Source of the DNA: Chitinophagaceae bacterium
GTDB taxonomy: Bacteria > Bacteroidota > Bacteroidia > Chitinophagales > Chitinophagaceae
DNA: 64,000 nucleotides
Reading direction: 5' to 3'
Assembly (NCBI GenBank): GCA_947379895.1
Contig: CANCPA010000003.1
Location: 1 to 64,000, forward strand
The stretch's first letter is position 1. Each line of letters begins with the position of its first letter. Below are positions 1-59,300 of the stretch, in pieces. A model generated the notes under the pieces. The model saw only the letters and a list, made by a program, of their open reading frames with translations. It made no database searches and had not been told where the DNA came from. The translations under genes and the position numbers were made by a program.

Positions 1-71
1 TATCCTAAAATAATGCCTGCAAATACAACCATTTCGTATTGCATTAATGGGAATGCTGTTTTATTGAACAT
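1..71 (-). CDS. Possible 5' end of a leftward CDS running off the window (MFNKTAFPLMQYEMVVFAGIILG...)
   Basis: Open minus-strand frame from ATG at 71 to the window edge; hydrophobic N-terminus; too short for family assignment. Confidence 0.35.
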   Translation of the reverse strand, partial: MFNKTAFPLMQYEMVVFAGIILG

Positions 72-196
72 AATATAATTTTTTAAGTTTGAATGAATAA
101 TGTATTTGTAATATACTAAAGTTAATTAGTGTTTAATTGAAGAAAATACATCTTCTTTTAGTCTTTTATAACTAAATACCAAGGTTTTATGATTCA

Positions 197-385
197 CTCA
201 TGAGATATCATTGTATACTCATGAGGTTTCACTGTATGTACATGAGGTGTCACTGTATATTCATGAGGTCTCACCGTATGTTCATGAGGTCTCATGAGCT
301 ATTCGTGGGGTCTTATCAGATATGCATAATAATTTACCATAAACTCATAAAACCTCATCAGACTGTCCGAAGACCTCCAAAATGA
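197..385. repeat. 21-bp-period degenerate tandem array (locus A), about 9 units, consensus like ttcatgaggtctcaccgtatg
   Basis: Unit starts at 197, 218, 239, 260, 281, 302, 323, 344, 365 by eye; also read by the 61-aa ORF as heptads MRYHCIL/MRFHCMY/MRCHCIF/MRSHRMF/MRSHELF/VGSYQIC. Confidence 0.9.
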
Positions 386-704
386 GTATCATCCTGCACT
401 ATGCAGACCCTTACAATGATGAACAGTAGCGATTTGTGAAAAGAAAGAAAAGATGTACGGCTTTAAAACAGGATTTGGAATTGAGTGATTACTGCCATTT
501 CCCACGGGAGGGGTTTTGACTTTTATAACCACTTTATTTATGAACATGTAGCAAAGAGATGTGCTTTATTTTTCTCCACCAAATAAACTTTGTAATAATT
601 GGCGTTTATTTGAAAATACTTTTGTATTTGTGATAAATTAGAAAAATCCCCTATAACACTAATCCACCAAATGGCAACCGTTACGAATATATTTTCTGTT
701 TTTT

Positions 705-2114
705 CTATTTTAATTCATCTAAAACTAAAAACATTTTCCTAACCATTTCACTCGAAGCCCCATCAAAATTATTTACGAGAAAGGCAACTGTATACTCATT
801 TCCCTCTTTACTTTTATGATAACCGGCAAATCCCTTTGTGCCACCAATTGTACCACTCTTTAATTTCATACCATTATATAAGGGAAGCGAAATGTAAAAT
901 GACGAATACCACGACTTATCTCTCGCATATTGCAAAGCGGTTACCAACGCATTTGTTGTCACTCTATTTTGAGGTGAAAGTCCACTACCATCCGAAATGC
1001 GCAATGCACTGCGTTCAATACCTCTTTCTTGCCAAAAATCTTTAATGACTTTAACACCTTCATCCGTTGATCCAATGCCGTTTTTATTAAATGCAATGGT
1101 CTTTAAAAATACCTCTCCATAAAGGTTAACACTCTTACGCATGAACCAAAAATTCATACTATCTAAGGCAGGGGAGTAGTTAGTGAAAAAAATGGTATCC
1201 GCTTTTTCAAGCTTTTGTTTTTCGGTTAACCCCTCAATACTATTTGTTATTTTATTGAATTTAATATGGTGCGAATTAAGTCCGTTCTCAATTATTTTTC
1301 CTATCAGGTGTAATGGATTTGGGTTTGCCCCCGAAATAATTACAGTTTTATTATTGGCAGGCAAACTACCCTCTACCACTCCAATTTTGCTGTAGGGAGG
1401 CATATAAATAGTGGCAAAGTCATTGCTTCCAAACTTATCGGTCTTCATATTATTAATTAAAGGAGCAATTGTTTGCTCGGGTTTAGTAGAGATAATTCTC
1501 GCCGAATCGCCTTCTTTATTGCCCGGCTTTAAGGTTAAGTCATACTGATTTTCAAACCAATTCAAACCCCATGAACCTGCTCCATAATAATTGCCAATAT
1601 CTTCCCATGTCCATCCTCCAGGAATTGGTTGCAAAGAAAAAGAAGAGGTATTCAGGAACACATTTCCTTTAATCTTCTTGATGCCTGTCCCAATTATTGC
1701 ATTCATCCAATTATTTAGTATGGCGGTATCTTTTGTGGTTTTATATCGCCAACTTCCAAGAGTAGGATCGCCAAACCCGTTAATTATCAAGTTTCCTGTT
1801 AATATTCCTTTTTTTATTTTACCGTTATAGCCTAATTCTGTTTTATAATGGTAATCTTTGCCGAGCATTTCAAAGGCGGTGATACTTGTTATAATCTTTT
1901 GACAACTAGCAGGTGCAAGCCCAATTTGACTATTATAGTCAAAAACGACTTCTTTGGTCTTGCTATTAATCACATAAAGGCTAATGCTTGCATGATTTAG
2001 AGAAGAGTCGGTTTTTAGTTTTTCAAATGCGTTTTGAATACGATTTGAAACATTTTGGGAAAAAAGTATTTGATTAAAAAAAAGAGAGATGCCAACTAAA
2101 TAAACATGTTTCAT
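705..2114 (-). CDS. dacB: D-alanyl-D-alanine carboxypeptidase / PBP4, peptidase S13 family
   Basis: SxxK (PASCQK), SDGSGLS and KSGT motifs, signal peptide. Confidence 0.9.
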   Translation of the reverse strand: MKHVYLVGISLFFNQILFSQNVSNRIQNAFEKLKTDSSLNHASISLYVINSKTKEVVFDYNSQIGLAPASCQKIITSITAFEMLGKDYHYKTELGYNGKIKKGILTGNLIINGFGDPTLGSWRYKTTKDTAILNNWMNAIIGTGIKKIKGNVFLNTSSFSLQPIPGGWTWEDIGNYYGAGSWGLNWFENQYDLTLKPGNKEGDSARIISTKPEQTIAPLINNMKTDKFGSNDFATIYMPPYSKIGVVEGSLPANNKTVIISGANPNPLHLIGKIIENGLNSHHIKFNKITNSIEGLTEKQKLEKADTIFFTNYSPALDSMNFWFMRKSVNLYGEVFLKTIAFNKNGIGSTDEGVKVIKDFWQERGIERSALRISDGSGLSPQNRVTTNALVTALQYARDKSWYSSFYISLPLYNGMKLKSGTIGGTKGFAGYHKSKEGNEYTVAFLVNNFDGASSEMVRKMFLVLDELK

Positions 2115-23209: not shown

Positions 23210-23884
23210 TTAGTTCATTGAAATTGTAATTGGAGTAGCAACACTTAAAGCACTAACACCATTTGAGTTTCCTGAAAATGCGTACGCATTATATTCAGTA
23301 TTTACCTTTAAATTAGTAAATGTCTTTACTCTTTGTTGCGATACATCAAAAATTATTGTAGGATTTGTTCCTGCAGGCAAAATTAATACACCGTTTATGA
23401 ATGAGGTACCCTCAGGTAATAAATTAGCTTCAATTAATAGGATGCCATAATAGTTTGCACCTTCAACTTTATGGTATTCAATTTTTTGTACACCTGTAGC
23501 CATCCGTTGCGTTCTATAAAAATGTGCCACTTCAAGGGTTGTTATCCCACCTGTAATTACATTATTTTCGTGAAATCCAGAAAGTTGTGCCATTTCTGAA
23601 CTTAAATTTGGTAGCAAATTAAGATAACTGTGCAACGAGTCGAGCATTCCTAAAATTATATTCCTTGCTGTAATAAGCGGACCTTTCATTCCTTTACCAC
23701 CCGAAATATAATCTGAACTTGCTTTATTGTATTTTTCTACAGCCTCCAAAAAATTAACTTTCGTTACAGGGGGTAATAAAAAAATTAATACATACGCATA
23801 CAGGCCGTTTGAGATGCCAGTAAGAAACTTTGCAAATGTGGGCTTATCCATATAAGGATAGTCCTTTAAGACGGAAACTTTCAT
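23210..23884 (-). CDS. Uncharacterised 224-aa protein, helical N-terminus and Fn3-like C-terminus
   Basis: C-terminal FTNLKVNTEYNAYAFSGNSNGVSALSVATPITI resembles an Fn3 last half; directly 3' of the locus B array. Confidence 0.65.
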   Translation of the reverse strand: MKVSVLKDYPYMDKPTFAKFLTGISNGLYAYVLIFLLPPVTKVNFLEAVEKYNKASSDYISGGKGMKGPLITARNIILGMLDSLHSYLNLLPNLSSEMAQLSGFHENNVITGGITTLEVAHFYRTQRMATGVQKIEYHKVEGANYYGILLIEANLLPEGTSFINGVLILPAGTNPTIIFDVSQQRVKTFTNLKVNTEYNAYAFSGNSNGVSALSVATPITISMN

Positions 23885-24135: not shown

Positions 24136-24429
24136 TACTAAATAAGCGTTCCCTTATTTAGTGAAAAATAAAAAGAGTCATGTTTTGTTTAAACAGGGTA
24201 ATGTTTTCACTAAACATGACTCTGTTTTGAAATAAAACTTCAATGTTTTGTCAAAACATTACCGTTTTGTATGGTTTCAATGCCAAGGTAGGGGGATGAA
24301 TTGGAGTGTAACAGTGGAAAACAGTAATGTTTAGTGAAAACATTACCCTGTTTTGAAAAAAAACTTCATTGTTTGCGCAAAACATTACTCTTTTTATTTT
24401 TTTCATGATAATGTTTAAAATAGACTTGA
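24136..24429. repeat. 21-bp-register degenerate palindromic tandem array (locus B), about 14 register positions
   Basis: Unit starts 24178, 24199, 24220, 24241, 24262, (divergent 24283), 24304, 24325, 24346, 24367, 24388, 24409; unit taatgttttGTGaaaacatta. Confidence 0.9.
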
Positions 24430-44560: not shown

Positions 44561-45247
44561 TTATCCTTTTACAAGTATGGATACAATTTCACTCCAATTG
44601 CCAATCTGTACGTTATTATAGCGATAAATAGTCTTATAATTCCACACTTCACTTACTCCTTCAGCAGGCAAAGGTGAATTGTCGATATAATCGGGTTTAT
44701 TACTAACATCTAATTTTATAAATCCTTTTCCAATATCCTTCCATACCTCATAGCCCTCATAGTCACCTAGTGTACAATGCAATCGGGGATGCCCCACATT
44801 TGATTGTTTGGAAGAAAGGTTGGGCTTTCCGGCTATCAAATCAGTAATTACAGGTAATTTTATTAATCCCAAAGTAATTGCCATTGGCTCGGTCATCTTT
44901 CCTGTTGCCATACATAATTGAGTGATTTCTCTAAAAAAGCCAACCACGCCCTGATTGCAAATTGCAGGTATTATTGCAGGATAAACAGGTACTACAGGTA
45001 ATGCATTCATCAAAATCGATGGATTACCTGTACGTAGCAAATCCTTGTAGGACGTTAATTCTAATCCAAAATGTTTAAAATCATGCTGTTTTGTTACTAC
45101 AAATGAAAAGTACGTATGAACTAAACCCAAAGTTGTAATCTTTGCGGGAGGTAGGTTAAGTATAGCTTCATAGTCAGCATAATGTTTGAGAAATTTACCC
45201 ATTTGATCAACTAATCCATCGTCTGTGTTGTCAATTACTATTTCCAT
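44561..45247 (-). CDS. Uncharacterised 228-aa protein adjacent to the locus C array
   Basis: Helical N-terminus; C-terminal YKTIYRYNNVQIGNWSEIVSILV, Fn3-like pattern. Confidence 0.65.
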   Translation of the reverse strand: MEIVIDNTDDGLVDQMGKFLKHYADYEAILNLPPAKITTLGLVHTYFSFVVTKQHDFKHFGLELTSYKDLLRTGNPSILMNALPVVPVYPAIIPAICNQGVVGFFREITQLCMATGKMTEPMAITLGLIKLPVITDLIAGKPNLSSKQSNVGHPRLHCTLGDYEGYEVWKDIGKGFIKLDVSNKPDYIDNSPLPAEGVSEVWNYKTIYRYNNVQIGNWSEIVSILVKG

Positions 45248-45349
45248 ATTTTTTGTTTTGTAAATCCATTATAGATTTTTATGATTAATAAACTATTTAA
45301 AATTCTTTTTATGCTTATTGTACATTATTCCGCATTAGATTCTATTTTT

Positions 45350-45525
45350 TCTTTCTCGAAAAGAACTTTTTCTAACGTAAAAAGGGCTTTTTCTTATATA
45401 GAAAGAGTTCTAGCTTGTTGGAAACAACCCTTTCTATGTTGAAAACAAAACATTCTAACATAGAAAAACTTGTTTCTTCATCAGATAAAGTTGTTTCTTC
45501 TGTGGAAAAACTTCTGAATCAGACA
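45350..45525. repeat. 21-bp-period degenerate tandem array (locus C), 8 or more units
   Basis: Unit starts 45350, 45371, 45392, 45413, 45433, 45454, 45475, 45496, 45517 (spacing 21,21,21,20,21,21,21,21). Confidence 0.85.
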
Positions 45526-45809
45526 AGATTACACGCAAAAACGTGTTGTAGAACTAACTACTGCCGTAAATAAAATGAAAATTGTAAGCTTTTAGTATGA
45601 TGAGGCTAAGCAGGAAAAGTCTTTCTTTTGATATACTTTTTCTTGAACTCTGCAAATTTACATGATTTGCATATACAAGCTAAATAAATTTTAAAAAGAA
45701 TGAATATATTTTAAATAATTTTTATCATAGAGTCATTTATGCTAAAAAATATATTTATTAAATAAGTAACGATGATTTTTTGTTGAAATAGTTTTTTGTA
45801 ATTAAATAA

Positions 45810-45953
45810 CAATGTCGTTAATTTAAGGGCACTAACCGAAATTTAGGGTGTCTGCCTGAGCCTGTCGAAGGCGCACAAAGAAGTAAATAACCATAATTTA
45901 GACCGGTTTCGACAAGCTCAACCTGACAGCTGTTTCTTAACTTAACGACATTG
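45810..45953. mobile_element. MITE-like non-autonomous element, 144 bp
   Basis: TIR caatgtcgttaatttaag / revcomp caatgtcgttaagttaag (17/18); flanked by exact 10-bp direct repeats aattaaataa (45800-45809 and 45954-45963). Confidence 0.8.
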
Positions 45954-59194: not shown

Positions 59195-59300
59195 ATAGTT
59201 ATTAATGGTTAGTTGTTAGTGTTTAGTTATTAGTTGTAAGTGGAAGTCGTATTAAGTTTACTTAATAACTAACCACTAACTACTAATAACTAACAACTAA
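59195..59300. repeat. Imperfect inverted repeat of gttagt/actaac motifs filling the intercistronic gap
   Basis: ggttagttgttagtgtttagttattag ... ctaataactaacaactaa. Confidence 0.75.

Follow-up and report, generated by a model that had tools for sequence, protein, structure and literature searches.

A tandem 21-bp array best explained as the upstream array of a helical and FN3-like gene family in Bacteroidota

Introduction

Near one end of the window, the 64,000-nucleotide stretch of Chitinophagaceae DNA that we analysed as a whole, lies an array of 21-bp units (array A) that an open reading frame (ORF) spans from end to end. Does the array encode a peptide of repeated heptads, or is the 21-bp period a property of the DNA, with the ORF incidental? 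The original prediction entertained both readings. It also pointed to two further arrays of similar layout in the window (loci B and C), and proposed to compare the ORF that starts at position 71 with the proteins linked to them. Here, we describe array A and its neighbouring gene, the protein families to which this gene and its relatives belong, and the wider population of 21-bp arrays, and we weigh what such arrays may do.

Array A and its reading frame

The array is real: TRF reports a 21-bp array at 198-294 (score 124) and a 42-bp dimer at 199-295 (score 138), and the self-match at lag 21 is 0.74 over 126 bp, the highest among lags 15-30 in the window (z=10.8). The core unit is about TCATGAGGTCTCAC. 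Roughly nine units had been claimed; eight stand in register, of which 5-6 are clear at the start and the final 3 are degenerate, and the ninth is decayed (Table 1). The palindromes noticed within the units are present, and lag 21 stands out at loci B and C as well, in keeping with the common layout proposed for the three loci. Predicted folding of array A is modest (z -2.15), Rfam gives no match in the window, and a simple scan of window 1-800, including the interval between array and gene, finds no rho-independent terminator. A weak relative of the array lies at C50:291-569.

The 61-aa ORF exists, but its description as almost entirely heptads does not hold, as only ~35 of its residues are heptad-like. 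In the homologous or related arrays of C335, C50, and L022, stops occur in every frame. The ORF lies on the strand opposite to the neighbouring gene, and most homologous arrays have this frame closed; we judge it incidental, and array A not primarily a coding repeat. The alternative preferred here is the one in which the 21-bp DNA period is primary, and this period is kept in relatives.

Table 1. Features of the window at loci A, C, and B
Feature	Position	Strand	Remarks
First 23 codons of array A gene	3..71	-	ORF start at 71; remainder on contig C8
Leader between array A and start codon	72..181	-	Direct reading
Array A	197..364		Eight 21-bp units (197, 218, 239, 260, 281, 302, 323, 344)
61-aa ORF within array A	200-385	+	Antisense to family gene
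Ninth, decayed unit of array A	365-385		
Conserved block, distal side of array A	381..683		77% identity to C335 over 309 bp
Locus C gene, 224-aa protein	23210..23884	-	Distant type II member (provisional)
Array C, 21-bp units in large inverted repeat	24147..24401		Arms 24164-24228 / 24337-24401
Locus B gene, 228-aa type I family protein	44561..45247	-	Predicted helices then FN3-like sandwich (AF2 pLDDT 92)
Array B, 21-bp units upstream of 228-aa gene	45319..45538 (about 45345-45500)		

The gene beside array A and its flanks

The leftward ORF predicted to start at 71 exists. The start of contig C8 overlaps the start of the window (the end of contig C3) by an exact 149 bp in reverse orientation, and across this overlap the complete gene would be C8:79-744, encoding 221 aa of the type II family described below, with its first 23 residues read from window 71-3(-). 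The join is drawn from the overlap alone, and a repeat at the node could give another continuation. Contig breaks often fall at or close to family genes or arrays (C3, C8, C20, C24, C32, and C335), which suggests near-identical copies or strain variation at these places. Homologues of C8:79-744 are found at C1:36447-37112, in C192 and C375, and as copies in genome G009. The proposed comparison of the left ORF with the array-linked proteins thus yields a full-length 221-aa relative, reached through the C8 dovetail and the profile alignment between families given below; an unrelated housekeeping gene was not found there, and the period is not lost among relatives.

The DNA around the array is conserved in ways that the array is not. 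The motif AAACTTAAAAA..TTATAT stands immediately before the start codon here and in C335 and L022, and four places in G009 match window 350-420 at 89-90% identity. When window A, C335, and G009 are compared, the flanks are conserved and the array between them differs; the G009 copy has only a GAGGTTTC-like core in common with array A. Two type II homologues in G009 (L022 about 1790, and L023) keep the frame and lack the ATG of C335 and C8, possibly reflecting an alternative start or decay.

Two related protein families

Type I has ten paralogs in the genome of the window, among them the 228-aa protein encoded at locus B. The type is present in 11 of 13 genus genomes, 18 of 249 family genomes, and 27 of 395 class genomes; type II is present in 9 of 13 genus genomes and in one genome sharing only the phylum. 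A single-protein search with a family protein matched one Chitinophagaceae MAG. Profile comparison by hhalign aligns 202 columns of types I and II (probability 89%, E=2.2e-6), which marks the two as related families. Provisionally, the locus C protein (224 aa) is counted as type II, without a direct sequence match to P0002. P0002 was not found in phage records, nor was L107 in plasmid records.

Both types are predicted to have helices at the N terminus and an FN3-like sandwich at the C terminus (AF2 pLDDT 92 and 90). In Foldseek, FN3 domains make up most of the best matches (E about 4e-5 to 1e-3), with TM-scores of about 0.5-0.7 when normalised by single-domain targets. There is no Pfam fn3 sequence match, and sequence searches of Pfam, NCBIfam, PHROGs, PADLOC, and PDB gave no convincing match. 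The proteins have a median pI of 6.1 (mildly acidic), and no DNA-binding domain could be recognised in them, nor any transposase or nuclease domain found. None of Pfam, NCBIfam, PHROGs, and PADLOC contains this superfamily, although it is multicopy and occurs in several Bacteroidota families.

Linkage of the families to 21-bp arrays

Array A is best explained as one that accompanies a type II helical/FN3-like gene on its upstream side, a case of the linkage seen at almost every superfamily member. All 10 type I paralogs in the genome of the window carry a period-21 array upstream. Lag 21 is the top upstream lag at 25 of 28 type I loci in the genus (lag 20 in two others), at 17 of 22 elsewhere in the family (second in three more; z 5.4 to 12), and at 18 of the 22 class loci with usable upstream DNA. 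It is likewise top at 19 of 20 type II loci in the genus and at 3 of 3 loci in a genome of another class. Across 2.2 Mb of the genome of the window, it is top for 15/15 family genes versus 255/1252 (20%) other ORFs, where the 15 include six type II-like genes, most of them first spotted via their arrays, and the 1252 are not matched for upstream gap length; 7.7% of the other ORFs have lag 21 upstream at a z of at least 4.4. One type II copy in this genome, C59, has no upstream 21-bp array. Relative to the start codon, the median array spans -337 to -95 (type I) or -283 to -61 (type II), ending 61-95 bp ahead of the ATG. At L055:8489-8626 (contig C24), a 21-bp array lies upstream of a 305-aa protein unmatched to either type.

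Arrays across the genome

The same 2.2 Mb contain 77 period-21 arrays that are not heptamer arrays, from which perhaps ~180 may be extrapolated for this genome. Arrays at neighbouring periods are few: periods 18, 22, 24, and 27 have ten, four, two, and six, respectively, and periods 16, 17, 19, 20, 23, 25, and 26 have none. Relaxing the threshold slightly gives 76 period-21 arrays outside long ORFs and 18 within them; flanking genes occur in every orientation, convergent included. Most arrays have no family gene beside them. Units are contiguous and diverged, without spacers, and higher-order repeats of 42 and 63 bp occur. A separate class of heptamer (7-bp) arrays numbers about 25 in the 2.2 Mb (window 59196-59300, L012:10122, and L014:16189). 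Window 45840-45940, lying between locus B and the gene after it, holds an inverted repeat, gcctgagcctgtcgaagg / cgacaagctcaacctgaca, that resembles a small palindromic repeat element.

Array sequences turn over together with the linked proteins. Arrays are alike in 5/5 gene pairs with protein identity of at least 80%, in 6/10 at 65-80%, and in 2/49 at 50-65%, so that an array sequence is common only to genes whose proteins are at least about 65% identical. In the pairs L109/L111 and L107/L120, the arrays are wholly different between conserved flanks. Since gene-linked arrays differ completely in sequence between relatives while the spacing stays constant, a new protein-DNA (or protein-RNA) recognition module is suggested.

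These properties bear on a neutral explanation, in which replication slippage with a two-turn bias would make minisatellites wherever there is a gap between genes, and the upstream gaps of the family are simply long. Many arrays do lie in ordinary intergenic gaps, and 42- and 63-bp repeats are what slippage typically gives; yet linkage to one superfamily across genera, families, and classes, dyad symmetry, and the presence of array types at unlinked sites make it improbable.

The scattered copies invite another explanation: a selfish module resembling REP/RAYT, whose protein would aid the copying of its array to new extragenic sites. In the genome of the window, the ACGTGC array type occurs at seven loci, one of which adjoins a family gene, and the GTTAAGCGAC type at three. 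G006 has one array type at five loci and G003 at two, with one locus per genome adjoining a known family gene. Flanks of same-type copies are mostly unrelated, with exceptions among C2, C4, C31, and C53, where the likeness may be the array running into the flank. This arrangement, a patchy and multicopy distribution, and the frequent position of gene loci at contig ends are as such a module would have them. Against it stand the lack of a transposase or nuclease domain and of an insertion footprint. The comparison for an empty site was made at the PBP4 neighbourhood, where neighbours differ among relatives with usable flank and the region is too little syntenic to provide one. We consider this explanation unlikely.

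Symmetry, folding, and coding capacity

Units are on average dyad-symmetric: mean z is 2.0 over 60 arrays, with 47% above 2. A set-wide test finds no clear covariation within units (0.000 on one axis, +0.016 on the other, p=0.05). Base-paired hairpins, hinted at by L109, are unsupported by this test. Two-turn spacing, together with symmetry without covariation, favours DNA over RNA as the level at which the arrays act.

The contrary case is an RNA-level module, in which the array would be transcribed from a promoter in the distal block and the repeat RNA would bind or restrain the protein, as in type III toxin-antitoxin systems. It draws on the order of array then gene, the pairing of a hypervariable array with a divergent protein, the conserved block upstream of the array, stop avoidance on the sense strand, and the strong predicted folding of arrays B (z -4.6) and C (z -9.0, very stable as RNA). 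Clear covariation is nevertheless absent, array A folds only modestly and has no terminator-like site before its gene, 21 bp suits B-DNA and not an A-form helix, arrays without a gene are scattered, some between convergent genes, and PADLOC and Pfam toxins give no convincing match. We regard an RNA-level module as a minority possibility, if the least improbable of the alternatives.

The stop avoidance also revives the heptad peptide beyond array A. The period is divisible by three, and gene-linked arrays are open more often in sense than in antisense frames (24 sense-only versus 6 antisense-only, p=0.0014). However, an ATG lies at or before the array start in just 22 of 46 open sense frames, and intergenic arrays of the genome of the window are open about as often as controls (0.30 vs 0.33). 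With the antisense frame at A and the stopped arrays described above, a heptad-peptide gene is very improbable. The sense-frame openness of gene-linked arrays would not be expected under a DNA-only model, and it is the chief observation that our reading leaves unaccounted for.

Proposed role of the arrays

What must be accounted for is that family genes have linked arrays, and that the arrays keep a fixed period, are dyad-symmetric on average, turn over along with the protein, and include scattered copies of one type. We propose, at a probability of roughly 0.42, that the arrays act as DNA, each a set of phased dyad sites for a cognate protein, and that array A is one among many. Each unit would be a dyad site, with a spacing of two B-DNA turns (21.0 bp) between neighbours, and sites so spaced could align a dimeric protein along one face of the helix. 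Either the product of the linked gene or a partner encoded elsewhere may be the binder; it would control its own gene and occupy scattered arrays of the same type, with a regulatory or structural outcome. As some scattered arrays sit between convergent genes, they are not ordinary promoter operators. As with satellite DNA, slippage or unequal exchange might let arrays grow and homogenise.

Several points count against DNA sites: the lack of a recognisable DNA-binding domain, the pI, an FN3 fold that usually binds proteins, the many genome arrays without an adjacent family gene, and the sense-frame bias. In its general form, a proposal we place just short of even odds, each superfamily member would own a private, fast-changing 21-bp dyad array and a few matching scattered arrays, giving many parallel recognition pairs per cell and a new module class in Bacteroidota. 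Should each protein recognise its own array, the superfamily would provide a natural library of co-diverged pairs for studying how specificity evolves, with possible use in conflict, self-recognition, or chromosome organisation. Otherwise, the arrays are a striking bacterial satellite-DNA system in which unit length is constrained and sequence is free.

Comparison with known systems

The link between superfamily and arrays is apparently undescribed: the literature yielded no description of it, with thin coverage of subscription journals. Likeness to FN3 domain proteins consists in the FN3-like beta sandwich of the AF2 models; the usual binding partners of FN3 folds are proteins. Iteron and partition-site arrays are protein-binding repeats spaced by about two turns near the gene of their binder. 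Here, in contrast, there are ~180 arrays per chromosome (extrapolated), mostly each with its own sequence, and the family has no replication or partition protein domain. Unlike in CRISPR, there are no near-identical repeats with unique spacers. The TAACTGA heptamer forms genome-wide intergenic direct repeats, with five Bacteroidetes among the reports (PMC4679880); with its 7-bp period and one fixed sequence, it is comparable to the heptamer class of this genome and differs from the 21-bp arrays.

REP sequences are extragenic palindromes of 20-40 bp tagged by GTAG, with the same type next to one RAYT gene (PMC3733652). Dispersed extragenic palindromic repeats of the gene-flanking type occur here too, but in tandem at a 21-bp period and with many types per genome, and all members lack the HUH tyrosine transposase and have an FN3-like fold instead. 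In type III toxin-antitoxin systems (ToxIN), tandem repeats lie upstream of the toxin gene with a rho-independent terminator between them (PMC5086642). The array directly upstream of a gene and the variable, locus-specific repeats are shared features. The differences are the terminator, not found at locus A; the dyad symmetry of the units; a helical and FN3 fold with no match to ToxN/TenpN/CptN-type endoribonucleases; and cognate arrays elsewhere in the same genome. Because a defining feature of each fails here, the array-gene system is best read as analogous to REP/RAYT and type III toxin-antitoxin systems, and probably a member of neither.
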